Part shown: positions 1-60,505 of the stretch, one piece after another
Position numbering within the stretch: position 1 is the first letter of the stretch
Layout: each line of letters opens with the position of its first letter
Program-made: the position numbers and the translations under genes
Assembly (NCBI RefSeq): GCF_040183065.1
Contig: NC_091119.1
Span: 68,390,392 to 68,454,391, forward strand
Length of the DNA stretch: 64,000 nt
Direction: 5' to 3'
From: Periplaneta americana
Lineage: Eukaryota > Arthropoda > Insecta > Blattodea > Blattidae
The notes under the pieces: generated by a model
The model's input: only the letters and a program-made list of their open reading frames with translations
Told to the model about the DNA's origin: nothing
Databases searched by the model: none

Positions 1-44
<44 letters not shown>
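1..44. repeat. (CAG)n microsatellite at the window edge
   Basis: About 14 perfect CAG units open the window, so the true length is unknown. No reading frame or neighbouring coding signal is visible that would make it a polyglutamine tract. Confidence 0.9.
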
Positions 45-45
<1 letters not shown>

Positions 46-975
46 GAGCTTGTGCAATTAATTTTTTACTACAATTAAATTCTTCTAAATGATCAAATAC
101 AACTTCAGATATTCTTTCGGCAATCCTGTCATCTGAAAGTCTTGTTAATTCTTGTGTTTTATTATAGCTATTTGATTTATTTTTATGTGATTTTGGTTTT
201 TATTCACTTTATTTTTTATATTAGGTTATATCATTGTAAATTATTTATTATTTCGTTTATTCTATACTTTTAACATGACCAATGAACTGCATTTAAGGAG
301 GCTACAAGGGTACTTGACAATTTGTATTGTAGTCTCTGACAGGGTTTCCACACCACCACCCAGAAAGAAGGGTCGCAGTATTAGGATATACGGTCATATC
401 CTCAAACGCAGTTTAAGTCAAGCCATACCCCACCCTCCGCACTCACCCCTGTCCATAACTTCACTGCTAGAAAAAAAATAGTTTGCTATAAGATACCTGA
501 ATGGTTCCTCGGAAAGTATTCCTAAGGTCTAAGATGTGCAGTGGCGACAACTCATGACAGAAAGTGGAAGTTTGAAGAAAATTATTACATCGGGACACAT
601 TAAAAATAAAATCTGTAATTAAAATCTTTTCTATCCTCAGAGGCACGAAATTAAACTGTAAGACCGTCCTCATATCCTTCATGGAGGAATCGCCATTGTT
701 GAGAGTGGCAAAACAACACTACTGAATTTTATTGACAACTGTGGTTACACCAGAATTTTTAATTTAGAGGGAAATAAGATATGCAGAACTTAATCAATGT
801 GGGCAATTCTTCAATCGTCCCTACTCCCCCAACATAAGTAGACATTGCAAGATTATAACTAGAAAAGGCAAATATTTCAAGCTTTTTTTTTTTTTTTTGT
901 AAAATTAAATTTAAGAAGTTATGAGTAAAAGTCCATATTTAATTTACACTCTGTACATTTATTTGCTAGAAGTGT
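45..975. other. AT-rich gene-free stretch
   Basis: I see no gene, domain or recognisable repeat here apart from a T run near 884-898. Short open frames have no family resemblance. Confidence 0.5.
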
Positions 976-1560
976 GACAGCTTCTGAAGCAGAATTGTGG
1001 ATAGTACAATGAGTGCCAGCTGATTTTCCTGGTGTTTGTCAGCTGATAAACAGCACATCACCACTACTATCATCACTGCTTGTTCCCGCGAACTCACGGT
1101 GCTCTGCCAGATTAGAACTTATGTACTATGTGACATTTATAAATTTAATAAGTTTCCAAAATTGGACATCGCTGTTTTATGATAAAAGATATCTATTCGA
1201 TTATTCTCACAAAGCTCGTCTCCCATTAGCTGCATGGGTGATAAATCTCCTAATGCTTAACTTGTTTTATCACTCCTGACTGGTGTTTATGTTATACTTC
1301 TGATATCAGCTTTTATTGTGTACATGCCAAGAGAGAAGCAATGAGAGAAAGAGAGATAGAGATCATCACGAGAAAGCTGCACAATTGGTGAATAGTCATT
1401 CTCAAAAATTAGTTGTGTGAATCTGTAGTCTGGTTGGTAAGCGACAATAAACGCATGCAAAGACTCAGCTAAGAATAAGTACAGTTCATTACATTCTGTT
1501 GTGTCTTGCAATGGTTACATTCAGGCAAGAATGTGTAGCTTACACATTTTGAAAAGGTAC

Positions 1561-1713
1561 ATATCGTCCCTCCTCTGGCAAACTAGCGAAAGTGACATAT
1601 TAGCGACTCTGTACTTAAGGTCTATACTGTACTATTTAATAGTACAATATAGACCTTAAGTACAGGGTCGCTAATTTGTCACTTTCGCTAGTTTGCCAGA
1701 GGAGGGACGATAT
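1561..1713. mobile_element. Near-perfect palindromic foldback / MITE
   Basis: The two 74-bp arms are reverse complements with about three mismatches around a spacer of only a few bases (TAAT). The ends read ATATCGTCCCTCCTCTGGC and its complement. No coding capacity. The transcript would form one long hairpin. It could be a MITE or a recent inverted duplication. Because ATAT is present in both ends, a TSD cannot be told from the terminal repeat. Confidence 0.75.
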
Positions 1714-1952
1714 GGAAAAAGAAACTGTGTGGCAGAACAAGGAAAAACTAAAGATAATTTCCTGGCTGCCCTGTTCCATGTAGAAAAACAATAGTAAATT
1801 TAGTGAATAGGTTTAATGAAACAGGTTCTGTGAATGATGTGATGTGAATTATGTATCACACAAGCTGTGCAACACTTCCAGCAGCGACTGTGTGGAGGGT
1901 AAATACCGAATGTTATTAATATAATATAGTATGTTACAAGTTTTAATCTGGC

Positions 1953-2213
1953 GAGTCCACACCTGTGGAGTAACGATTAGTGTGTCTGACTGCGAAACCA
2001 GGTGGCCTGGGTTCGAATCCCGGTTGGGTCAAGTTACCTGGTTGAGGTTTTTTTCAGTGTTTTCCCTCAACCCAATATGAGTAAATTCTGAGTAACTATC
2101 AGTGCTGGACTCTGGACTCATTTCACTGGCATTATCACCTTCACTTCATTCAGATACTAAATAACCTGAGATGTTGATACAGCATCGTAAAATAACCCAA
2201 TAACAAAATAATA
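1953..2213 (+). mobile_element. tRNA-derived SINE, family 1
   Basis: A pol III A-box-like stretch (GTGGAGTAACGATTAG) is followed by a B box GGTTCGAATCC, then a body and a tail (GTTGATACAGCATCGTAAAATAACC). Flanking AATCTGGC at 1945-1952 and 2214-2221 is a plausible 8-bp target duplication. The tail is shared with the copy at 6161-6409. Confidence 0.8.
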
Positions 2214-2481
2214 AATCTGGCAGAGCACTATGAGTTCGCGAGTGCAAGTAGTGGCAGTAGCAGGGGGGGAGGGTGAACCTGCCACTGGTGAGCCAACAGA
2301 AACACCAGGGACATCTGTTGGGACTCACTGCATTACATTTAAATGTTAAATCTGGGGTAGAATCTACAGAAATGGGCATCTTCAGAAGGTCTGCGCAATG
2401 TTCAAAATTTTATAAAACGAGAAATTAGGATAATAGGAGGATGGATGGATTACGATATCAAAATTCTATAACTAACTATAT

Positions 2482-2576
2482 CCATTATCTCCTGGCCTAG
2501 TTGTCTCATAGGTGGTGCTTTGTTGGTATTACTTACGAGGTTCAAACCTGTCTTCGGACAGTTGACTAAACAACAA
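2482..2576 (+). mobile_element. Short tRNA-like SINE, family 2
   Basis: A copy of about 95 bp has a B box (GAGGTTCAAACC) and ends in CGGACAGTTGACTAAACAAC. It matches a second copy at 9128-9210, including the start CCATTATCTCCTG. The tRNA-like half is the whole element. No TSD was resolved. Confidence 0.6.
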
Positions 2577-2589
2577 ACATGGTAAACAA

Positions 2590-2815
2590 ATTAAGTTAGT
2601 ATGGTCTTGCTCGGAGGATGAAGGACGACAAACTATCGAGACAGATATTGAACCGATACCTAAAGGATGGGAAAAGAGAGGAAGACCATGGGTTACATGA
2701 ATATAGAGGAAAATAAGAAAGAAATGCAGCAGAAATGATTAGAAAATGGAGACTCGGAAAATTGAGAAGAGTGGAGAAGAAAACTTTGGGCACAGAAAGA
2801 TGGTCAATTTCCATA
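2590..2815 (+). pseudogene. LINE reverse transcriptase C-terminal fragment
   Basis: The frame reads LARRMKDDKLSRQILNRYLK and continues with KRGRPW and KWRLGKLRR after a shift. This resembles the tail of non-LTR reverse transcriptases (GHV.RM.D.RLP...GRR.RGRP). It is short, frameshifted and 5' truncated. The clade cannot be set from so little. Confidence 0.45.
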
Positions 2816-3385
2816 GTATTACGTCCTTGATCTCTCGTATGTTAAGTTGATAGGAACAAGAGGTGGGGGGTTATAACAGTGCATTAGAATATACACGTAA
2901 GTATCAAACAATTAAAGAAAATGGAGCCTTAGTGGGTGTAGCTTGCAAAGAGAATTACCAAGAATAGTTACACTAAACATCGTTATATACAATTTGATAA
3001 GGCAAATTTAATGAGTATAGACTAGGTACCACTGTGGTAATTATTTACTTTAGCTGACGGCGCGTATTCTCGATCAAATTTATTTCGAACTCCTCGATTT
3101 GACTTGGGGAATAACTTATGTGGAAACTGCATTCAGTAATCAACAAGGGACCGCTGGTCTTTTACAAGGTATGTGACAAGGTTGTGGGTTAGTTGAGGAG
3201 ATATATAAGTGACGTGAGGCCGAGGATCTTAAATCATTGATTTTTTTTTTTTTATATATACGGTATTCCTCAGTCTCCCGTCACTTACAAGCAAACATTC
3301 TCATTGGGGCAGATAGTTATTTTTTTTCTTCCACCATGTTAATAATGTCGAAACACAAATTTTGGCCACTCGAGCGCAATTACGA

Positions 3386-3625
3386 GGGTCGTCCAGAAAG
3401 TAAGTTTGCCTGGGGCCGTTTACAGGAAGAAAACATAATTTCATGGAAAGATTTATTGGAACAGATATAGCGAATTGTTATGTTAAGCTATTTTTCAACA
3501 TATTCCCAACCGGAATTTAGACATTTGTCATACCGTGGGGTCAACAGATAGGTGCAGATGGCTGTCACACACGGGTTCTGGTCCCAGGCAGCAGACTTCT
3601 AAGCCATAGGAATACAAAATTTGAT
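3386..3625 (-). pseudogene. mariner transposase C-terminus with 3' terminal repeat
   Basis: On the minus strand the frame ends RYDKCLNSGWEYVEK and a stop, the hallmark C-terminus of mariner transposases (RYDKCLN...YVEK). It is followed by a 3' UTR and a terminal inverted repeat containing ACTTTCTGGACGACCCTCGT. Only the last part of the gene survives, so no catalytic residues are present. Confidence 0.8.
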
Positions 3626-3765
3626 CCCACTGTATGACAAATGTCTAAATTCCAGTGGGGAATATTTTGAAAAAGGAATCAACAATTCCTGTATCTGTTT
3701 CAATAAATTTTTCCACGAAATTGTGTTTTCTTTCTGTAAACGGCCCTCGTACTTGCGCCCAAGTG
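3625..3765 (+). pseudogene. Second mariner C-terminus, opposite orientation
   Basis: The plus-strand frame reads LYDKCLNSSGEYFEKG without the terminal stop, then a 3' UTR like that of its inverted partner. The terminal repeat is shortened. It is the mirror copy of the neighbouring mariner end. Confidence 0.75.
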
Positions 3766-3853
3766 GCCAAAATTTGTATAAGCACTTGTTCTGACATTGT
3801 TAACATGGAGGAAGAAAAAAATTAACTTTCTTATCTGCTCCCATGAGAATGTT

Positions 3854-23401: not shown

Positions 23402-23635
23402 AATAAATAAATATTATGTTTTATTTAACGATGCTCGCAACTGCCGAGGTTATATCAGCATCGCTGGTGTGCCAGAATTTTGTCCCGCAGGAGTTCTTTT
23501 ACATTCCAGTAAATCTACTGACATGAGCCTGTCACATTTAAGCATACTTAAATACCATCGACCTGGCCTGGGATGGAATCCGCAACCTTGGGCATAGAAG
23601 GCCAGCGCTATACCAACTGTGCCAACCAGGCCGAC
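23402..23635 (-). mobile_element. tRNA-derived SINE, family 3
   Basis: On the minus strand the head GGTCGGCCTGGTTGGCACAG (A-box region) is followed by a B box near GGTTGCGGATTCCATCC and the tail CGTTAAATAAAACATAAT. The 12-bp TSD CAAGGGAACGAA lies at 23390-23401 and 23636-23647. Same family as 34916-35150. Confidence 0.9.
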
Positions 23636-27151: not shown

Positions 27152-28395
27152 GAGGAAAGTGCCCTAAACCGGACTCCTCCCCCTAAAGCGGACCCCCGGT
27201 CTCCTGGCTCTGCATTCTCCTAAACTCTAGCAGGGCTAAGTGTAAATAGTAGTTTAGGCTTCTACCACTCTGCAGCGGAGCACACACGTTGCCTGCTTCA
27301 CTTGTTGCTTATCAGTCTGCAATTACGTGTTTTGACAGTGGAAAAAGTTTTTACATTGTGCTATATTTTTCGTTTTTTTCTCCTAGATATTGGGAGGTAA
27401 GCCATTCGACCTATATATATTCTTAAATGGTAAGGTTTAAGGTTATTGCTTGTCATTAAACCGTTTAATTTAGATGTTTGGTTAAAAATCTATTGAGTTA
27501 ACAAAATGTTGGCTATAGTGGCGTAAATCGGACCCCCTTCAGTTGCCTAAACTGGACCCCTTATTTTTTCATGTTTAAAGTCTACCTGTATTTGTACACA
27601 CTCTTATTCTCTTGGAATTCTGTTCCAAATTTCAGGAGGATAATGGGGAAGGAAGGAACAATCTTTGCAGCGTACCATTCAGGGTGGATCCAAATGAACT
27701 ACTTCACTCAGTGGTTTCGACACTTCATCGAGTTTGCCAATCCTAGAAAGGAAAAACCTGTGCTGTTGCTCTTGGATGGCCACTTTAGCCACACACAGAA
27801 TATTGATCCGATCAACTTGGCAAAAACAAATCACGTTACCATTGTCGCTGCCACCTCACTCTTTACACAAACTACAACCTGTGGACAAAACTTTCATGGC
27901 AAATTTTCGGAAGATTCTAAAGGGGAACGTTGGGTCATGTGCGCTATGTACTGGGACTGAAAAGGACATGAACATCTGCAATTTTTGCCGCTAAACGATT
28001 TAATTCTGTTGTACGTTTTATGTATCTTTTTTGAAAACATCCTCTATCTTTTTTTTTTAAATTAAAACCTGCAATTGTAACATTATACTTATACTTTGTA
28101 ACTAGATTATGTTTTATCTCATTTAATACCTTTTTCCAATTTTTTTTAGTTTTATTTTGATTATTTTTACAAGGGGTCCGATTTCGGCAACTATTTTTCT
28201 AATCGCCAAAGTGTAAGGTTAGTGAAAATAATTTTTTTCATACTAATTTTTAATTATATTTTCTAAAACCAAAATGTAAATGGTGTATAACATTATCAAG
28301 TAAATATTACATGCTTTTAAAACATAATTCTTTACCATTTTATATATTTTTTAAATCAAAAACAAAATGGGGGACCAGTTTTGGGCACTTTCCCA
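27152..28395 (+). mobile_element. pogo-like DNA transposon, internally deleted
   Basis: The ends GAGGAAAGTGCCCTAAACCG and the complement of CTGGTCC... / GGGCACTTTCCC form the terminal repeat. TA lies on both sides (27150-27151, 28396-28397), and the uninterrupted repeat R copy gives the empty site. Words such as CTAAA..GGACCCC recur near both ends (about 27182, 27528, 27550, 28172, 28370), probably transposase binding sites. It carries a broken DDE gene fragment. Confidence 0.85.
27630..27995 (+). pseudogene. pogo-like DDE transposase fragment
   Basis: The frame reads HSGWIQMNYFTQWFRHFIEF, then KEKPVLLLLDGHFSHTQNID, the central DDE_1 block with its LLLDGH..H aspartate. After a frameshift near 27860 it continues LPPHSLHKLQPVDKTFM in another frame (the family has LPPHSTHKLQPLD.. 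with the third acidic residue). The N-terminal HTH and first catalytic aspartate are missing. It cannot make an active enzyme. Confidence 0.85.
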
Positions 28396-29640: not shown

Positions 29641-30777
29641 GTAATGTAAATGATATCTATATGGCAGTGCAGTTATTCACTGATACCATCAGTACAACCA
29701 TTGACGATACCACACACTCTATTTCAAAGTCACTGGACTTTGAAGATGATACTGATTTGAAATTTATTTTACTAGCTAAATCTAGAACACGAAAGAGGTG
29801 GCAGCACTTTGGGGACACTCAAGCAAAGAGTGCCTTTTATAGATATCAAAGAGCTATTCGAAGAAGACGTCAAACATATATTACAAAATCATTTGAAGAT
29901 AAAATTCATAATGCGAGTTCAAATAGTAAAGATTTCTGGTCTCTTACAAAACGTTTATTACACAAAAATTCCACCAACAAAAATCTCATATCCAAGACTT
30001 CAATGGAGAGATGATATACGATTGACAGAAGAAAGTTGAAATTTTAGCTGAATCTTTACAGGCGAGATTCCAGCCACATCTTGAACCATTGGATCCAGTT
30101 TTTACAAGAGAAACATTCTTGCATTGCCTTCTTTTGAATCAATAACCTTTGTCACTCCAAAAGAGATACTTCTTACAATTAAAAATCGTCCAGCCAACAA
30201 AGCACCAGGACCTGATAAAATTACTCCATTAGCACTGAAAAGGTTGCCTAGAATAGTCGTCACACACCTAACAAAAATTTATAATGCATGTCTTGCACAC
30301 TCCTACTTCCCCACCGCTTGGAAAGTTGCAAATATGGTCTTAATCCTAAAACCACGAAAACATTCAATTTTTGCAAATAGTTATCGACCAATAAGCTTAT
30401 TGAACTTCTTAGGAAAAATCTTAGAAAAGCTCTTTCTCACTCAAATACAACCAATAATAAATTCACCTGATCGGATCCATCATGAACAATTCGGGTTCAA
30501 ATCTCATCATAGTACCAAGGAGGCTCTCTTTCGGCTCACTTCCTTTATCCAGTCTGGCTTCATTAATAAAAAAACACACTGTTGCTTCTTTTTTGGACAT
30601 TGAATAAGCATTTGATACCGTTTGGCATGAAGGTGTAATTTTGAAACTCTATACTTTGAAGACCTCTACAGCAGCGGTGACCAAATCTCGAACGGCAGTG
30701 ATTACACGCGAGAGACGGTTGATGAAGTAAAGAGACGAGGGAGAGGTACTTGGGATGAAAACTACAACCAGTGGTGG

Positions 30778-34915: not shown

Positions 34916-35150
34916 AAAATTTAAAATTATGGTTTATTTAACGACGTTCGCAACTGCCGAGGTTACATCAGCGTCAGCAGTGTGCCGGAATTTTGTCCCG
35001 CAGGAGTTCTTTTACATGCCAGTAACTCTACTAACATGAGTCTGTCGCATTTAAACACACTTAAATGCCATCGACCTGGACCGGGATCGAACCCACAACC
35101 TCGAGCACAGAAGGTCAGCGCTAATATCGACTACACTACCCAGGCCGACG
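34916..35150 (-). mobile_element. tRNA-derived SINE, family 3
   Basis: On the minus strand the head GGCCTGGGTAGTGTAGTCGA is the A-box region and GTGGGTTCGATCCCGG a strong B box. The tail is CGTTAAATAAACCATAA. The perfect 12-bp TSD GATCTTAGTTGA lies at 34904-34915 and 35151-35162. Confidence 0.95.
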
Positions 35151-37440: not shown

Positions 37441-38416
37441 GTAAGTAACTGTTCAAATTCTAAACTAGTGGCTCTTTCAGCTATGCATAAGCAGAATCCG
37501 TGGATACCCAGAGTAGCACTACCAGCTAGTCGGTCGCCATTGTTATTCTATATCAAAACGCTTGGGATAGTAGTATTTAAAGTAAAACTCAATTTAGGTC
37601 AGTGTCAACTGTCCTTAAAATTAAAAATATTTGATTCTGATTTAGGCTATATTCATTCCCCATACAAATGCATGTGGCAAATAGCGTGCGCTGTAATAAA
37701 AATAGCTGAATTGTCGGCATTTCCAGCGCAAAGAATTGCGGTACTCTGGATATCGACGCACTCTGTGCACAAGTTCAGGAGACTTGAATTCTTATTGGTA
37801 GCGAATAGGGCAGTTATCCAGTGGTGTCATTCAGCCAGTTCACACCAGTCGCCAGATTCACTTGTTGAATTTGTCGCAATTCCTAGAACCTGTCCTGGAA
37901 TGTTTGAAGTTAAAACAAATTAAGTTCTTGACAGAAAGGAAGAACATTAATTTAACATTTTAACATGAAATTCTCTAGATTTTCAATATGACAGCACATA
38001 TAATCATATCATATTATTAAATCGTTGTTTCTTATCCAAGTGTGCAGCCAGTCAGAACAGGAATACAATATCGCCGGCCCAGCTTGAAAGGGAAAAGACT
38101 CAAAATTCTGTGGTGCCCGGGTAAAGGGGTATAAGTCCAAAAAATCGAAAAATGAGTTACGTATGCCATGATGTTCAGAAAGCCATATTCTATAATTGGG
38201 TAAAGAGACATAAGTCCATCCAGCTCAGAAAAGTATATATAGAGATGTGAAAAAGGGTATTAATCTCAAAAAGCTCATGTTTGTTTGGGTAAAGGGAGAT
38301 AAGTATACTTATATCCATTTACACGATCTGGAATTGTACATACATGTTTGGTACTGAACTTATACCCTTTTGCACAACTTCTAGATGGAGACACGTGTAG
38401 ACCTATAACACCGTAC

Positions 38417-41400
38417 CAAATACTGTAGAGAGCTAATACCGGAAAGCAACGCGATTAACATGGTGTCGGGCGGCGACACGAGAACACTAGCGCTGTCTAG
38501 CGGCTTGGTTTGAACAATGCTTCCAATATGTATTGCTTCAAACACCGTACGAAGGTCTCTACAGTATTTCATTGCGTATATATCTAGGAGGGGTTGGGAG
38601 GAATTGTGGTAGGCCTATATAGTATAACATGAGAGCTAAAGAAATCATTACAGAACGGTCAGATTTACATTCTCGTTAATTTAATTGTCATAACTATTGA
38701 ACGAACATTATGATACTAATAATAATAGTATAAGATGTTTTAAAAGAGATATCACATTGGTGAAAAACAACATTATAGCTACAGTACATACTGCTTAATT
38801 GTCCCATTAGCTCTCTATTCTCCAGGTTACTGATGCATTACTTTTTTAGCCTTTCTGTTCTTTTTTCCAGTCACTGTTGTACAACTTTTTCTGTCACATT
38901 CATTTTTTACAAAACAATTGATCATGACGTTAAGGAACTTATTAACGAAAACATGTTTACAATCTTTACATACTGAATCAGTTTGATCTATTTGTTCAAA
39001 AATAAGGGCCATTAACTTGGTTTTTACACCTTGTCTGCTTGATAAAAGAATTTTTCTGAAGTGCGTGTGAAATGTTGATCGAATAATTTTAGATAAAGAA
39101 ACTGAATAACTTGTGGGAATTAGAAAATTAGCACTGTCATACTTTTTATTTGCAATATGCTGATAAATGCCTGTCAAGTTTTGAGATTTGAAACTAGCTA
39201 GTTCCAGTTTGCATGTCTCATGTGGTATTCTGCTACAAGCCCACCCTGTCACATATGTTAGTGCATTATCTGGAATCATACACTGATCAAGATTGTCCTC
39301 TTCAAGTTCAGCGGTTTCTACAAAACTGTTTTCTGTTGCTAGATAATCACTGCAGATTCTAAATAAACTTTCTTCAATCTCCTTCTTCGTAACTAAAAAA
39401 TCACTGACTTCAATTTCACAGTTGCCTTTCTCTGAAGGTGTTAAGAGCTGGCAGCTCATAATTCCTCTGACGGCGGACTTGAATTTACAGCTGTCAGGGG
39501 TAATGTTATTACCACCCTTAGAACGCACGACAGAGAAAATATTTTCAATACAGTCTTGTGTTATACGTCTTGTAAGCAGGAACCAAAAGTTAAAATTTTG
39601 TTCCAGATCTTTCCACAAGTGACGTAGCGCTGTTATATTTTGTATCCAACCCTTAAAGCAAGGAGGGTTTGTCTTTTTTTCGCTCAGAATTTTCAGTTTT
39701 GAGAACAGACTTTCCAGTTCTTGTAGAGTCGTCCAATGACAAGAAGTAGTTTGTAAAGCCCTGCGTGAGGATTTAGCATCGTTCATGGTCGATGAATTAA
39801 AACAGTCAAATCCACGATCCACTAGCTCTATAAACTCAGCTGTTTGAAGAGCTTCTTCAGGTAGTGACTGAAATGACACATGAGTTTTTATGGCCTTGCT
39901 GACTGAATGACTTAGGACCTGTGCAGCCAGACAAACCCTCATGGGCGAGAAAGGTGGAAGTTCTATATGTTTTTGTCTCAATTTTGGGCATAATCGAGGA
40001 TTCATATCTTTATCCTTATTATACAGTTCAATAACATGTTGCCACTTGTATACTTCATCTTTGTACGAAAGGTCGTGCCGCTTAAAGTTGTTTCGTACTG
40101 ACTTTAGGAGATGTGGTGTGTCATGGAAGAAGTACACAATTTCTCCATCTATTTCAATAAATGGTTTATCAACCTCGCATCCCAATAAATTCCTCATTCT
40201 AATATTACTGGCTGCCTGGTCACTAACGACTACTTTAGGAAAATAGCCACATTTCCTAACCTCGCGGATCGCTTCGGAAAGAAGATCCTTTAGAACATCA
40301 CCGGACGTGGAATTATTAGATAGGAAATATCCTATTATCTGCTTGTAGTTGGTTTGCAAGCCCCTAATCATAAATACTAAAGCCTGATTTGCGGGTTTCA
40401 ATTCTTCACTTTTTGTTTGATTTTGACTCTCGTACGGTCCAAATTCTACAAAGCCATCGAATAAATCGGATTTTGCATCATACGAGAAACTTTGTTTCAA
40501 AGATATCTCGTCAAGTACAATGGAAACAACTCTCTGAGCTGGTGTAAGACTTCTCGATTTTACCTTAAGAAGTTGCATTATTGTTTCATTGAAACCTGGA
40601 CCAACACCCAATTGTTGCAGCCAATTACGTAAGGAGCGAATAGTCGGCAGACAGAAAGTCTTCCTCAAGTATCGATATGCATTCGGTGAAGCATAATGCA
40701 ATGCCAGTGCGAAATTTTTGTCGTACTCTGTATATCGCCTTCCCATAGGTTTTCTTTTTCTTAGCTTCAACTGAGATTTAAGAAATGAATCTTCTACCAG
40801 CGATTGAACACATTCTAAAGATGAATAAGATTTTTTCAATTTTTGTACGTCAGCTCTTAGGGTTTGAATGAGTTTCCTTTGTTTTGACATAATTTTCTGC
40901 GCATTCCTTAGTTTGTTAGTAAGAAATTGTATTTTTTTCTCAGACGAAATTTTTTCTCTTTTAGGAGTTCTAGCATTGTCCAAGTTATCTGTAACAAGAT
41001 AAATCTTGTGCTTTATAAGGCTTACAATATTATATTTCGAAACATTTTATATTGTAATCATATTTGCTAGCAAATAACAATTACGATATTAGGGCCAGGA
41101 AAATAAAAATACAACAATCAGGGCTTACTTAAATATTTGTGACTTTGTAGAATGCATAAGTTATATTAGAACAGGTAGTACTGTATCTTACTTTTGTTAG
41201 AATCTATTTCAGGTAGTTCCAGACAAAGCGGTGTGTCCTCTGGTAACGATACACTTTCTGTGAACCGTTTCTTCGGGCTGCGCCTCTTTGTTTTGTCTAT
41301 TTCTCCTGGCACAGATAGACAAAGGGAAGGAACAGCATTTTTCTTCAACCTAAAGAATTATATTACATATAGGCCTGTGTATGTGAATATAATATATAAA

Positions 41401-42184
41401 GTAAGAGTTTATAATGATTTTTATTTTGTTTTTATTTTTACAACAGACCGCTTACCCTTGACTATGTAGATTCGGGTTTCGGAAGTCTGACTGCTGAAAG
41501 TGTTTGGCGCAGATACGATGAGACTTGTATAAGCGTTCAGATCCTCCTTTCTTAAACACCTCATCTAGATCTGACCTACTGCATTTTTGAACCCACTGAG
41601 CACAACTGTGAGGGAATATACACTATAATTAATTTTTGACATAATTATGAGCTTTGTATTAACTGTATTACCAGTAACTTGGTGACAAATTTATGAAGTT
41701 AACAACCCTGGTAGAAACATGTAGAGCCTAACTTACAACAATCACAAGTTAGAAATAACATCAATTGTTTTTCACAGCTTTTTTGTATGGCTACTGCCTG
41801 CCTTTTGTAATTTAAATTAAATATTAGAGAATACAAGAAAGACTACCAAACATTAAATACCGTACAGTACGTATACAAAAGGATTAAACTTACATATTTC
41901 TGTCGCGAGGGAATCTGAAAAAAGACACCACTCCTCGTTGCCAAGTATAATTCTTACAATGAAACACTGCACAAACAACGCCTGCTTTACACTCCATAAC
42001 AGCTTCTTAGACAGGCAACTATTCTTACTTCTAGCCCGCTGCAGGAAACACAAGAAATGTTTCGATCTCCTCCCACACGGCCGATCCTCTCGTCAACTTA
42101 TTCAAACCCTTCCGCTTGGAGCGCTGTTAGTCGGTGTCGCACATATGAGAGCCAGCTTTCCGGTATTAGTATCTACAGTATTTG
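38417..42184 (-). mobile_element. Complete P element (THAP9-type), 3768 bp
   Basis: The inverted ends CAAATACTGTAGAGAGCTAA / CAAATACTGTAGATACTAAT both continue to TACCGGAAAGC, about 30 bp with few differences. The 7-bp TSD ACCGTAC lies at 38410-38416 and 42185-42191. It contains a four-exon transposase gene on the minus strand and no foreign insertion. With an intact gene and intact ends, it is structurally a full autonomous P element. Confidence 0.95.
38827..41997 (-). CDS. P element transposase, THAP9-like, four exons, apparently intact
   Basis: Exons are 41997-41894, 41605-41456, 41349-41192 and 40988-38827. All introns are GT-AG (donors GTAAGT, GTAAGC, GTAAGA) and the frame joins to 857 residues. 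The THAP zinc finger spans residues 1-95: C9, C14, the invariant W39, C67 and H70 (RICAKHF), and the closing AVPS at 90-93. A leucine-rich coiled coil lies at about 155-190, then an HTH-like block (RRYTEYDKNFALALHYASPN) at about 220. The RNase H-like core has D297 (IVLDEI), D394 (VVSDQ) and E619 (CIENIFSVVRSKGGNN). Between D394 and E619 lies the GTP-binding-type insertion (HDTPHLLKSVRNNF at about 426). The C-terminus is Cys-rich (CKDC, INCF). THAP9 family enzymes bind terminal repeats and cut and paste DNA in the nucleus. The length matches human THAP9 and Drosophila P transposase. Exon structure was inferred by reading, not from RNA. Confidence 0.93.
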
Positions 42185-42359
42185 ACCGTACTTAACATTT
42201 ACTGGCAGTTTGGCAAATATATTGTATCACATAGCAAAAATAACAACATTTTTGCATATCTGATGTCTGCATATATCATTCGAATAATTCATGTGTGGTA
42301 CCAACATTATGCAAGAATATGGCATAACAGCTACATTTTTTAATATCGAAGTATCCATT

Positions 42360-45267: not shown

Positions 45268-47015
45268 GATTATTCAAAACATAAATAGACTTTCAACTAC
45301 AAAATATACCGAACTATTAAGCACATTAATAATATACTTTGTTTTCCTCTTTTAATACTCCTACAATTTTTACTCCATTTTTAATGGAATAGATTTTTTT
45401 CATTAAAAGTATGGAGAATTCAGAATGCTTCAAGGTCGCCGGGTCGGCAGTAGTCAGTATCATTTAAGTTGCGCTTATGTTTGAATCTAAATCCCACACA
45501 GTAATCAGGGTAGTACAATGAAACATGAAAGCGTTCCATCAAGTCTTCTAAAGGCTGGCTGTTCAAGAACCGACTCATGCGAGGTGCGAGGCCAGTTTCG
45601 TACAAATCCACACTACACGAGCAATTGTGAGTGGTTTGTAAAGCTAAGAGGTGCGCGGTCTGAAGTGAATTGGGACGTTTTCACTTTGACTGTCTCAAAT
45701 TCGGCAATGCTCAGGTGAATCCTCCATCTTGCCATTCAAGAAATGTTTATCATCAGGAAGACTGTTGATGGTCATGTTTCAACCGAGCTATCCCTGGTGA
45801 GAGAACAACAGGATCCAGTCTGCAACAGATCGCCTACCAAGAAACTTTTATCTCCTGAGAGAATACGAAATCTGCCAGACATAGCCTACATGATAACAAA
45901 TCTCTCGCAGTCCAACTAGAAACAGTAAGATTAAACACGCAAAATACTTTCGAAACTCAATAAAGTACTTAGTTACATCAAGATTCTAGATCTAGAATCT
46001 CACACAAAAGATCTAAAATAGAGAATTCTTCAATTAAAAATAAAATGTGTTTGCTAGTAGGTGACAAGGTTCTTCCAATGCCTTGACATGGCATTGAGGG
46101 CCAAAAAACTCAAATTTCAAAAAGTTGTTATTGTTGTTTTCTAATGTCAGGCGTTTGGCAATAAAGTCATTTGACCTCTTGCACTCCAATATTTTTCAAA
46201 GATATTATCATGACTAGCCACTGAAGCACAGATTTTGAGGTGTTCTGAATCCATTTCTTGGTTTGAGTTGCACAATGGACAGTTAGGGGACCGATATATT
46301 CCAATTCTATGCAGGTGTTTGGCCAAACAATCATGGCCTGTTGCCAATCTAAATGCAGCTACAGACGATTTTCGTGGTAAATCGGGAATTAACTGTGGAT
46401 TTTGATGCAGAGAGTTCCATTTTTTCCCTTGGGATTGTGTTATCAAATTTTGTTTGTTGAAGTCTAAGTATGTAGATTTAATAAATCTTTTCACAGAGTA
46501 ATACGTAGATTTAGTAACAGGTCTGTAAGTAGCAGTGCTGCCCTTCTTTGCTAAAGCATCCGCATTTTCGTTTCCCAGGATTCCACAATGGGATGGTATC
46601 CATTGGAATACAATTCTTTTATTGAGTGATATTAATTGAGAGAGCATTTTAGTTATTTCTGCTGTTTGAGATGAAGGTGTGTGTTTAGAGACTATTGATA
46701 GAATAGCTGATTTGGAGTCTGACAATATAACTGCATTCCTAAATTTATTTATGTGGCATAGGAGATTCCTGAGACTTTCCCTTATTGCAATGGAAATTCA
46801 AAAAGTAAAATTCCCACAAGTCTAATATCATGCATAAATGTATAAAACAAGAACAAAAATTTCACTAAAAGTACCAGGGCTGAGAGGTTTATAATTTGTA
46901 ACACAGTAAAAGAAAAAAAGTCGGAGCAACTTTTGAAGGAGTTGGGAACTCTTGTTGGTATTTGTGTTAAAGATGAAGAAGAAACTGTTTCTATTCTTCA
47001 TCTTCGTCAATGCCT
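45268..47015 (+). repeat. Dispersed repeat S, copy 1
   Basis: Aligned in order with 52443-55795: TTCAACTACAAAATA, AAGCACATTAATAA, GAGTGGTTTGTAAAG.TAAGAGGTGCGC, GAGAGAACAACAGGAT and the end TTCATCTTCGTCAATG.CTCATTG. Copy 1 is interrupted only by the LINE B insertion at 46126-46793. No gene was recognised. Confidence 0.75.
46126..46793 (-). mobile_element. LINE family B, 5'-truncated copy with part of RNase H
   Basis: A frame on the minus strand runs from the third acidic position of RNase H (MSDSKSAILSIVSKHTPSSQ) through FQWIPSHCGILGNENADALA (last catalytic aspartate), KFIRKSSVAAFRLATGHDCL-type sequence and a zinc knuckle CPLCNSNQEMDSEHLKIC. It ends near QMTLLPNA and a TTAGAAAAC / (AAC)n tail. 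Nearly identical TSDs AAATTTCAAAAAGT (46112-46125) and AAATTCAAAAAGT (46794-46806) flank it. Repeat S copy 2 shows the empty site. Confidence 0.9.
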
Positions 47016-49333: not shown

Positions 49334-50590
49334 ATGGGTTACAAAAGTAGCTTGAAAGTATTTAAGAAGAGAAGAAATGTTGGTAAACGTAAGAACTCTC
49401 TTCTTAAATACTTTAAGGTGAATTCTAACCTACAACCCTCTAGCACACGTGGTCAGTGTGAATCTGTAAATAGTGGCTGTGCATCAGGAAAGAAACTTGA
49501 AGATTCTAAAATCAGATATGAAACCCTCAAACAAGAACACAGTGTTAGTGATACCAATGGGGTTATAGATGTTGGCATATTATCTAGTGTACTGCAAAAT
49601 AATGTATTCTGTAAAGGCTGTGGCAAAGGTGGGATATTTCTTGAGGTAAAAAAGCACATTGGTCTTGCTGCAGAATTAGTTTTAAAATGTAAATACTGTG
49701 CGTATGGTGTAAATTTTTACAACTCTTCATCTATTGATATTTCAAAGATAAACCCAATAACATGTAAACTCTACACAATAAATGTTAGACTATGTATGGC
49801 CTTAGGGCTATAGGAAAAGGTAAGACAGGTGGAGAGACTTTATGTGGCATTTTGAATTTGCCACCTCCTCCAACCAGGTCTACTAGATATAACATAATAA
49901 TTGGATCTGCGATTGAAAATGTTGCATTACATAACATGAAGGTTGCTGTGGAAGAAGCAGTTGCAGAAAATGATAATGTCAGAGGCATATCAGCTGCCTT
50001 TGATGGGACGTGGCAGAAAAGGGGTCACATTTCACTAAATGGCGTTGTGACGGCAACTAGTGTGGACACTGGCAAGGTAATTGATGTTGCTATATTATCA
50101 AAACATTGTAGGTGTGAAGGTAGAACAACAAATAAACATGAAACCGATTGTGAATGTAATTACAGTGGGTCAAGTGGTGGAGTGGAGGTTGCAGGTGTGA
50201 CGAACATTTTCAATCGGTCACTCAGTTCATATAATGTGAGATATGTGAAATATTTAGGAGATGGGACTCTAAGTCATTCATTGCTGTTGAGGAATTGAAA
50301 CCACATGGGAATGACGTACAAATTAGAAAATTAGAGTGCATAGGCCACATACAGAAAAGAATGGGGATTTTGAGGAGACTGAAAACCAGTGTGAAGGGAC
50401 AAAAATTATCGGATGGTAAGGGTTTATTAGGAAAGGGGAGGCTAACTGTCTCAGTTATAGACAAAATTCAAAACTATTACGGCATGGCCATAAGACTTCT
50501 ATTTACTATTTTCCCGAAACACATAACCACAGTGGACCATATGACGATTCACCACTGTTATTCTCATCCCAACCGACACTTGAGACAGGC
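49334..50590 (+). pseudogene. Mutator-like transposase, frameshifted
   Basis: The start MGYKSSLKVFKKRRN is typical for insect Mutator-like transposases. A zinc-binding-type CKGCGKGGIF and CKYC follow, then (after a frameshift at about 49805) RAIGKGKTGGETLCGILNLP, GISAAFDGTWQKRGHISLNG (first catalytic aspartate), CRCEG and HETDCECNYSGSSGGVEVAG, and VRYVKYLGDG (second aspartate). After another shift near 50280 come VEELKPHGND, LECIGHIQKRMG (C..H block) and KLSDGKGLLGKGRLT to YYGMAIR. The reading then leaves the family, so the C-terminus is lost. Two frameshifts make it non-functional. No terminal inverted repeats were found. Confidence 0.85.
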
Positions 50591-56160: not shown

Positions 56161-56619
56161 TCTCTGTGGTCACTTGGTCATCAAAAAAGCAACTAGATGC
56201 TCAGAGAGAAACCAAAGATGTTGGCAAAATGCCATAATAGCCTATAATTGTTCTTTCTTATCTACAGTTTGGTTGGGATATTTCTTATGGAGAGTAAGAA
56301 GCTTGTGGACTTTGAATACCAACAAATACTCTCTAACATTAATACTGGAAAGCTTCCCTGTTTAGCATTGCAAGCGGCGGCGAAAAGTAACAATGCTGCC
56401 ATCTAGTGGCTTGAAACGTTCACACACTCTGTGCGCCGTGCTGGATTACGTGAGGAAAAGAGGAGAGGTGTGCATTTGATTTCAATAAGAAGCTGCAAAG
56501 CAATAAATAGTGTACTTTAGAGTCACTTTGTTCATAACATTTTTAATTAATAACAAATTACAAAGTTATTAGAATAGAAATGAATTGATAAATTCTCATA
56601 TTTTCAAATTTGATGAAAT

Positions 56620-59555
56620 TTAGTTGTGTATGACTTTAGCAGCTTTCATACATCGCTTGTTTTGTTTTTTAGCTGTATGGTTGTCCATTTTATTTTTGCT
56701 GTAACAATTTATTAACACATTGAAATATTTATCAATGAAGACATTGGCACAGTCACTGCAAATGGACATGTTAACAGGGAGCACTACCATTTTAACTAGT
56801 TCTTTTTTTACACCAATTCTAGTTTTATAAATAACATGATCAATTTCTTTAAAAACATCAGAACACAATTGGCTGAGCATTAGAGAAACATCATTAGGAA
56901 AAACAATTTTTGAATCTTTACAGTATTTTTTATTTGCGATGTGCGTTGTTACGTCATTGTTGGGGTTTTCTTTACAAGATAAATTTCTCCGACAAATTTC
57001 GTGATTTATTCTGCTACACACCCAACCTGCAACATAAGCCCTTGCATTTTCTTGCAACACGGTTTCTTCATTTGTATGCTGTACATTTTTGTCATCAACA
57101 GTTACATCTAAATCAGAGACATCTGTAATGCCTGGACTGCAAAAATTCAATTTAGCTGCCTCGATATCTTCTTTCTTGAGTAAGAAAGAAGAAACGTCAG
57201 CTTCACAGTTGCTTGTTTCAGGAGGACTTAGGAATTGTTTCGTCATGGTTGCCCGAATTGTAGCTCTAAACTTCGATTAGTCTGGAGTTACGTTGTTTCC
57301 ACCTTTAGATCGAATAATAGAAGAGAGATTTTCTATGCAGCCTTGTGTTAATCTTCTTGTTATTAAAAATTTAAATCCATAATTATAATGCAATTCTTTC
57401 CATAGCAGTTTTAAAGATTGTAAATTTTCTAGCCAGCCATTTATACATCTTGGGTTCATTTTCCTATTGTTTATTACCTGAATATTTCCAAATGTTTTTT
57501 TCTATTTCATTAAAAAAATTCCAGTGTGTGGAATTTTCACTTAGTGGCCTATTTAAGGCTTTACTAGTTTGGAAACTAGAAGAGTTAAAACAATCAAAAG
57601 CTTTATCCATAAACAGGATGAAGTCTGCAGTAGGTTGAGCCTCCTCTGGTAACTGAATTTTATGAGTGATGCCATAGCTTTTCCTACAGAATGACTTAAT
57701 AACTGTGTAGCAAGGCACACTCGCATCGGTGTGAATGGTGGTAGATTCAAGTGATTAAGTTTTACTTTAGGACAAAGTCGGGGATTCATATCTTTATCTA
57801 TAAAATAAAGTTTTTCTAGGTATTCCCACCTAATTAATTTATCAAATAGCTTAAAATTATAATGTTTTAAATTATTCCTTACGCTCTTAATCAAATGTGG
57901 TGTATCATGAAACAAATAAATTTTTTCACCATCGTGTTCAAAATAGGGCTGTACTTCATTACATCCAAGCAGTCTTCTCGATTTAGTGTTGTTCGATCCT
58001 TGGTCTGAAACAATCACTTTAGGGATAAATCCCGTATCTTTTATTTTATTTATTACATCAAGCAGATGTGATTTTAAAATCTCTGCAGGCATGGCATCTT
58101 TCGATAGAAAATAACCAATGGTTTGCTTAAAATTTTTACACATTCCTCGAATCATAAAAACCATTGCTTGGTTTGCAAGTGGTACCTCTGAATCTTTTAC
58201 ATTAGTTTGAGATTGTTGGTTAGGGCTGTGTATACCCAATTCAATGAATCCCTAAAAAATGTCCACTTTAGCATTGTACGTTATATTTTCCTTCAAATAC
58301 ATTTCATCTACAATAATTGTTACTACCTTTTCATTTAGTGGCAGCATTCCAGACTTTACTTTTAATAATTGTAAAATGGTGGGATTTATACCGGGGCCTA
58401 TACCAAATCCATGAAGCCAATTTCGGAGAGATCTGACTGTTGGCAAACACAATTTTCTCCTTAAAAATCTGTAGCCCTGAGGTGAGCAATAATGGACTGC
58501 AATGCAAAACTTTTATCGTAACTGGAATACCGCCTTCCCATTTTTTTCTTTCTTTTTAAACGCACTTGCGACATAATGAATTCATCATTAGAAACAATTT
58601 TGATTAAATCAGTATTTGAACTGGTTGTCTTCAGAGCTCTCACTTCCGCCCGAAGAGATGAAATAATTTTTTTGTGTTTAGATACCAACTTTTGAGCTGG
58701 AATCAATTTCTTAGAAAGTGTCTTTATCTGAAGATCTTGAGCCATCTTTGATCTTTTAGGATTTCTTGCATCTTAAAAAATAAACAGGGACTTAATTTAG
58801 TGAAATATTAATAACGTCTTGAAAGTCTAGGGCTAGGTAAATAATATTTTCTGAATAACTAACTGAATCAGTTTTTATGAGAAAACATGAGTTCACACAC
58901 TTTCTTCAGAAAATCAATAATTCGTATTTTTATGTTGCGTATCACAATATGCGTCTATTTAGTTTGAAAAAGTCATGACTTTCAGTATTTTGTATGGAGA
59001 AACTATAAAGAAATTGTGTTTGGTATGATGGAAGTAAAGTAGTTTTATGCAGTTTAATAACTGATTCACTTAGCACAGAGAACATGTTATTGCTAATGTA
59101 CTATCTGGTTATGAGGTACCTGGTAGAGGACTATCGTCGTTTCTGTCTGGAATCGGAGAACCTGTCGCCTCCTCAATGGAAGGTCTAATGCGTTTCTTTG
59201 GGGACCTTCGTGGTTCTTTCATTGTACTTTGACCCATATTTTCGGAAGAAGGCGCTGTTAAATTCAGTGAAGGAATAGCTGTTCTCTTCAGTCTGTTATT
59301 AAAAAAATATATTAAAAATTAACAGGTCTATGACTCATTTGAAACTTCGGTACTTTTCCAATTACACCTTATTTTTACTTACTCCTGACTTTTCAAATTA
59401 GGGTTATTGAAGTCCAATAATCTAAAGTGATCTGAACATATTCTGTGATTTTTGTACAGATACTCTGTTCCTCTAGTTTTAAACGTTTCGTCTAGGTCCT
59501 GTCTTTTACATTTATTTACCCATATGGCACATCTATAAGACAAAAACAAATAACA

Positions 59556-59606
<51 letters not shown>

Positions 59607-59995
59607 TGATGATGATGATGGTGAGGACACGAGACCTGTCATGTGAATCGTGCAAGTGGGAAAAGAATGAGCTAGCAGAAAGAGAGTTTGTTCCATGATT
59701 AAAATTATACGAATCTACTGACACGAAAGTTCATCTCAGACTAATTATCTTCCTTCTCCATACCCATTGGTGAGAGCCACAACACATGATAAGGTCACAG
59801 AACAAGTTATCTACTGACTCTACTGTAATAATCATCATCATCATCCTGTGGCAGAAAAGTAATAGACTACTTGTATTTACATGACTACTCACTCACCTAC
59901 TCACTTCGGAAATCTGAAGAACGATCTAGCATCTTTTTGCCAAGCGTAGTTTTTACAGAAGAACACAGAACAAACAATTCCACTTTCCCTGACAT
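56620..59995 (-). pseudogene. P element transposase pseudogene, THAP9-like
   Basis: The exon pattern is conserved: exon 1 to 59905 (GIVCSVFFCKNYAWQ, SFFRFPK), exon 2 59532-59383 (CAIWVNKCKRQDLDETF, HRICSDHF; 150 bp as in its relative), exon 3 59292-59120 (LKRTAIPSLNL) and exon 4 from 58771. THAP C, C, W, C, H residues are present. Catalytic residues survive as IIVDEM, VIVSDQ and CIENLSSIIRSKGGNN. Lesions: the exon 1 ATG is out of frame with the finger, a frameshift near 58455, a stop near 58255, frameshifts near 57710 and 57460, and a stop near 57280. It cannot make a full enzyme. Intron 1 carries an AAT microsatellite. Confidence 0.93.
59552..59625. repeat. (AAT)n then (GAT)n microsatellite in P element intron
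   Basis: About 16 AAT units followed by four GAT units. Leu- and Tyr-rich frames here are repeat artefacts. Confidence 0.95.
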
Positions 59996-60505
59996 GTTGT
60001 GGAACAGCCATGAGAATAATCCTTACGACTTACACCACGTGTTGAAGTACAAAACTCTTGTTAGATGCAGTTTACCACGCTATGTGCCACGTTATCCTCA
60101 CTGTCAACATTCCCTGCTGCTAGATAGCACTGATGAGTCATTCGCCTCTCTTATCGTGAACTGTCCAGTATTAATGTTAGAGAGTATTTGATACCAATAG
60201 ATGCTTTGTTCCACTCTCTAATGTTATCTAGTGTCTCAGCAATGGCTCCAGCTACAAATACTGTTGCACAATCTGGAAGACTGACTCTATCCAAGGCACT
60301 GACTACTTTAGGTGACTGGAATATGTTGTTAGGGACGCTAGGTGTGAGGAGGGAACCTTTGAAGCAAGTAATAATGTTGAAAATCAAGATAATGGTTCAG
60401 ACAGTCGATATGCATTCTTGCTATCAGATGTACTAGGTGATTAACATGATGAAGAGGGTCGGTTGCTCTTCCTTTCATGGATATAAATTCACTTCTTCAT
60501 GTCCA

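Follow-up and report, generated by a model that had tools for sequence, protein, structure and literature searches.

In the window, by which we mean the whole analysed stretch of 64,000 nucleotides from the cockroach Periplaneta americana, lies a 3,768-bp DNA transposon of the P superfamily (E1, positions 38417-42184, transposase gene on the minus strand), very probably a full-length and recently inserted copy, which may still function, of an autonomous cut-and-paste element. Its ends, its intact reading frame and its dispersed copies with different target-site duplications together lead us to regard E1 as having been autonomous and recently mobile. The preliminary description of this DNA had proposed an element that is "active or recently active"; of these two, it is recent mobility that is borne out, by dispersed near-identical copies, by their different duplications and by paralogous empty sites.

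The element is enclosed by a perfect 7-bp target-site duplication, ACCGTAC, on its left (38410-38416) and right side (42185-42191), and is bounded by terminal inverted repeats of 31 bp on the left (38417-38447, plus strand, the 3' side of the gene) and 30 bp on the right (42155-42184, minus strand, the 5' side of the gene); the inverted ends of about 30 bp and the duplication reported in the preliminary description were thus both located. Aligned to each other, the two ends show 93.5% identity across 31 alignment columns with one gap, and their outermost 13 bases are identical. Among the 12 full-length or near-full-length copies of the family, the left repeat is unchanged in all and the right one in 11 (one difference occurs in L019); since 23 of the 24 ends match the corresponding end of E1 with zero differences, the mismatches between its left and right ends are fixed in the family and are not a sign of decay. 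When the window was scanned for 10-bp inverted ends with a 7-bp duplication immediately outside, in pairs 0.5-10 kb apart, two pairs were returned, namely E1 and a second P element (E2, see below), compared with one pair in ten block-shuffled windows combined, so that chance alone would not account for the structure. The outer 13 bp of E1, with up to two mismatches, occur at 10 places in the window against 3.2 expected, a number that one of 100 shuffles reached. The outer end sequence recurs in inverted orientation within the element, some 137-153 bp from its left end (38553-38569; 17 bp with 94% complementarity, repeat pair I3), adjoined by the 10-mer AACACCGTAC (38541-38550), which is also present in the left flank of the insertion site (38407-38416). 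The internal copy and AACACCGTAC possibly constitute a candidate binding site, or they may reflect chance.

On the minus strand, four exons separated by GT-AG introns join in frame, according to predicted splicing, to 857 residues ending in TAA. This gene structure had already been put forward in the preliminary description and was confirmed, and the zinc ligands C9, C14, C67 and H70 as well as the D297-D394-E619 set are present as it had claimed. Exon 1 (41894-41997) contains the ATG and the THAP residues C9 and C14, exon 2 (41456-41605) the second part of the THAP domain with C67 and H70, and after exon 3 (41192-41349) follows the long exon 4 (38827-40988), which encodes the helix-turn-helix (HTH), the RNase H domain with D297, D394 and E619, the GTP-binding insertion and the C-terminal part. 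Intron 1 (41606-41893) measures 288 bp; intron 2 (41350-41455, 106 bp) has the donor GT in 11 of the 12 copies and TT in L020, and intron 3 (40989-41191, 203 bp) has both GT and AG in all 12. By motif scan alone, a possible poly(A) signal, ATTAAA, is placed 3' of the stop codon (38680-38685, minus strand). If intron 3 were retained, the frame across exon 3 and this intron (40989-41349) would stop shortly past exon 3 and yield a short protein with THAP alone; intron retention in flies gives rise to a truncated repressor (described in part in PMC7776569).

Five Pfam families were identified in the E1 protein, all above cut-off and in P-element order: THAP (8e-15), the HTH of Tnp_P_element (4.4e-13), RNaseH_N (7.4e-34), the GTP-binding insertion (8.3e-20) and RNaseH_C (3.8e-6). 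Three sequences of solved structures match the protein, namely 6p5a and, through their THAP domains, THAP1 and THAP11. The first of these, the Drosophila P transposase, aligns to residues 174-646 (E 1.5e-41), so that D297, D394 and E619 stand opposite chain residues 230, 303 and 531 (hand-counted on the alignment), and of eight GTP-contact residues taken from PMC7776569, seven are identical in E1 in this alignment, with one K to R replacement. A DDE triad and a D(2)H motif are given as traits of the P superfamily in PMC4168063, and the latter is present in E1 as DTPH at residues 427-430, including H430. Having the transposase domains, the DDE residues, the D(2)H motif, inverted ends and a duplication within the range of 7-8 bp, E1 belongs to the P superfamily. 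Structure prediction of the transposase was poor (mean pLDDT 42). Judging by homology to the Drosophila P transposase, the spliced 857-residue protein would bind the element ends via its THAP and HTH domains, would pair these ends with GTP bound in the insertion domain and would cut the DNA with its D297/D394/E619 centre; integration at palindromic GTANTAC-like sites would then create the 7-bp duplications.

The window's own genome (3.23 Gb in 91 contigs) was searched with E1 as query, and 40 of 192 first-pass candidates were scored, so that copy counts are lower bounds: at least 84 matches and at least 11 places spanning positions 1-3768, E1 included. Forty copies were fetched with flanks of at least 400 bp, among them the 12 full-length or near-full-length ones (L009 is E1 itself; in L020, about 58 bp close to the left end are missing). 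Both ends are present in 30 of the 40, and the other ten, in which an end is missing or too altered (L021, L026, L039-L045, L048), were left out of the duplication count. A perfect 7-bp duplication flanks 27 of the 30 two-ended copies, all 27 being distinct; L015 and L036 have one mismatch each, and L031 shows no in-register match. The preliminary description had named a lack of close copies at other target sites as the result that would speak against it; 11 further full-length or near-full-length copies, with different 7-bp duplications, were found. Empty sites, the counting of which it had also suggested, were sought in the window and the fetched loci with the two flanks of each of the 27 insertions joined as query, and for three insertions, uninterrupted related repeats span the junction: for L011 in L008 (94.8%), for L038 in L002 (95.1%) and for L046 in the window at 23408-23635 (90.4%) and 34927-35149 (86.6%, the 7-mer differing by one base). 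In each case the match is a paralogous copy of a host repeat and not an allele. The two intervals in the window are members of one host repeat. An empty site of E1 itself was not found in the window and the fetched loci. Pattern searches for relatives yielded 4 matches in viral_contigs and 12 in genome_contigs, of which none could be confirmed, as expected for an animal transposon.

An intact four-exon frame and a complete domain set would also be seen in a THAP9-like host gene that descends from a P element, is kept for a host function and is a transposon in appearance alone. Such an origin is, however, highly improbable, given the complete ends and duplication, the 11 other full-length or near-full-length copies and the neutral character of their changes (see below). 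Identification of E1 as a domesticated THAP9 gene was accordingly rejected, as it has ends, duplications and dispersed copies.

E2 (56323-60190, minus strand, 3,868 bp), likewise of the P superfamily, has an exon layout similar to that of E1; its duplication is ATACCAA (56316-56322 and 60191-60197) and its ends of 30 bp are alike at 29 of 30 positions. It matches the exons of E1 in the same order, with a protein identity of 40% over 679 alignment columns, and it is dead, the transposase being broken by three in-frame stops over the aligned codons and by a frame change between its two exon-4 matches. Differences between E1 and E2 by codon position (0.43, 0.30 and 0.62) point to constraint on the protein while the two lines were diverging. 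Searching with E2, we scored 40 out of 3336 candidates and obtained 29 matches, E2 itself not counted, that extend over all or nearly all of its length; 13 of the 29 were fetched, namely the three top-ranking and the ten bottom-ranking ones. Twelve of these 13 copies have the duplication and flanks of E2 in common (1.5 kb at 98.3-99.5% in L050-L052 and 254-401 bp at 88-100% in L053-L061), and L062 is the sole fetched copy with a duplication of its own, GTTATAT. No stop-free stretch of more than 289 residues was seen in 14 E2 copies, E2 included. Based on the common duplication and flanks, E2 therefore owes its copy number chiefly to being carried along within a larger amplified repeat. Outside the window, the E2 matches among the 40 scored cluster in a few contig regions and on small contigs, in a manner resembling a regional repeat (C12, 1.5-17.5 Mb; C15, 134-181 Mb; small contigs).

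E2 thus provides a precedent for the view that the copies of E1 as well were spread by duplication of larger repeats bearing one old insertion, and not by transposition. For E1, we nevertheless consider this scarcely credible: its 27 perfect duplications all differ, flank matches between its copies are few, partial and like those of shared host repeats, and paralogous empty sites were found. The contrast between the two elements illustrates that copy number alone is no proof of transposition and that target duplications need to be compared. The neighbourhood of E1 is rich in transposons. Beside the two P elements, the window contains a piece of a Mutator-like transposase (49789-50295, Pfam PF20700, 3.8e-30), a DDE_1 transposase piece (27502-27957), a reverse transcriptase piece (30085-30600) and an RNase H piece (46150-46797).

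Transposition being our preferred explanation for the spread of E1, its timing can be approached through the 12 full-length or near-full-length copies. Three of them contain an intact coding sequence (E1, L010 and L011), and nine are broken by frame-changing indels, some of them with stops in addition; L020 also is without one splice donor. At the seventeen checked sites, which are catalytic, zinc-binding or GTP-contacting, 8 of the 12 show no change at all. Seven copies form a star-like burst in the tree, each with 7-13 substitutions and thus 0.19-0.35% from the majority sequence, which at the rate of ~3e-9 substitutions per site per generation known from flies places the burst roughly a million generations ago. 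No identical pairs exist among the 12 copies, the nearest relatives of E1 being 99.4-99.5% alike, and hence nothing in this sample points to very recent insertion. In the coding sequence, 39 silent, 82 replacement and 9 stop changes occur as singletons; 39 silent ones out of 130 compare with 27.4% expected (p 0.49), and the shared coding changes (11 of 34 silent) show no difference from the singletons. Because the singletons fit neutral change, the intactness of E1 should not be taken as evidence for selection on E1. In simulated neutral decay at 0.5% divergence, the frame stayed intact in 52% of runs that modelled substitutions only and in 19% of those that also allowed indels; three intact copies therefore require no selection. 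E1 differs from the family majority by 6 residues, none of them at the seventeen checked sites; it has decayed neutrally since its insertion and is intact owing to its youth.

Whether the family still has a working transposase is a separate question. We give even chances to the explanation that it was recently mobile and now is extinct or silenced, with no copy providing a working enzyme in living animals: nine of the 12 copies are broken, the three intact ones are 4-6 residues off the majority, and no identical copies were seen among those aligned, whereas the retention of all seventeen catalytic, zinc and GTP sites in the three intact copies speaks against it.

Besides the full-length copies, an internally deleted form of the family has been amplified, from which the start codon, exons 1 and 2 and most of exon 3 are absent (41208-42027, based on match coverage). 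To within about 10 bp, this form matches the element at positions 1-2791 and 3612-3768, with the junctions shown in four copies, and the stretch of about 2792-3611 is missing in 16 of 18 aligned deleted copies, L046 and L047 having a different deletion pattern. Of the 18, twelve resemble one another at 99.0-99.6% and group in the tree as a star; the burst of these 12 copies without THAP exons is similar in age to the full-length burst. Exon 4 is broken in all 18 deleted copies checked, yet all 18 have both ends and 16 are each flanked by a separate, perfect 7-bp duplication, and it was therefore most likely the transposase of the intact copies that mobilised them. Differences in exon 4 between the full-length and the deleted majority (26 silent, 40 replacement and 2 stop) suggest constraint that is weak at most.

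Together with their reverse complements, the 27 perfect duplications give the target consensus GTANTAC (G27 T45 A27 N T27 A45 C27 of 54), with a mean match of 3.67 out of 6 compared with 1.64 for random 7-mers of the window (largest of 2000 samples, 2.41); GTANTAC was picked after viewing the duplications, so that this comparison is not blind, and the palindrome is visible in the raw counts. Known systems with which E1 can be compared are Galileo, 1360 (also called Hoppel) and the P elements of D. melanogaster, Anopheles gambiae and zebrafish. Galileo is described from six Drosophila genomes with the same consensus, GTANTAC, and duplications of typically 7 bp (PMC4168063), and it further resembles E1 in its THAP/DDE transposase, but its inverted ends are long and Foldback-like (PMC4168063), whereas those of E1 measure about 31 bp; with such short ends E1 is not a Galileo element, despite the shared 7-bp GTANTAC target. 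In D. melanogaster, the modal duplication length is 7 for 1360, as in E1, and 8 for P (Table 3 of PMC3276498). Compared by descriptions of duplication and motif, 1360 differs from E1 in its target motif ANAGT/ACTNT, which it has in common with P (PMC4168063). The D. melanogaster P element is like E1 in the order of THAP, HTH and RNase H with GTP-binding insertion, in its DDE residues, in its ends of about 31 bp and in having internally deleted derivatives (PMC7776569); it differs in its 8-bp duplication and its length of 2.9 kb (PMC7776569), compared with 7 bp and 3.77 kb in E1, and the common deleted form of the E1 family is one that loses the THAP exons. E1 cannot be classed as a canonical P element, as none of the 30 two-ended copies has an 8-bp duplication. 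The preliminary description recorded the length of 7 bp without remarking on this difference from canonical P. The P subfamilies of A. gambiae, with ends of 27-31 bp, autonomous copies in a non-drosophilid insect and non-autonomous relatives, likewise have 8-bp duplications (PMC1562414) in place of 7 bp. Zebrafish Pdre2/zfTHAP9 offers a full-length THAP9-type gene with ends and duplication as well as internally deleted copies, but with ends of 13 bp and a duplication of 8 bp (PMC10983969), compared with about 31 bp and 7 bp in E1. Petersen et al. 2019 list the P element superfamily for every arthropod species surveyed (PMC6327564), and the superfamily of E1 therefore is to be expected in this genome. 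Considering this survey and the published Anopheles and zebrafish P elements (PMC1562414, PMC10983969), the preliminary description put the rarity of active P elements in such a setting too strongly. A search of the open-access literature for cockroach or Periplaneta together with P element found no paper.

We would put forward with reserve, as a rather unlikely reading, that E1 represents a still-active P lineage outside flies, which has short ends, targets 7-bp GTANTAC sites as Galileo does, and whose intact copies drive both themselves and the THAP-less deleted form. Were this true, the GTANTAC rule would go far back in the history of the P superfamily, and the canonical P, Anopheles and zebrafish elements, with their 8-bp rule, would represent a separate state. 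Having intact copies, deleted satellites and a target like that of Galileo, this recently mobile family usefully extends the known P superfamily. The E1 family and its matching burst of deleted copies in a genome of 3.2 Gb provide a test case for the life and taming of P elements outside Drosophila, and the 7-bp GTANTAC target common to E1 and Galileo makes the evolution of target choice in the P superfamily testable.
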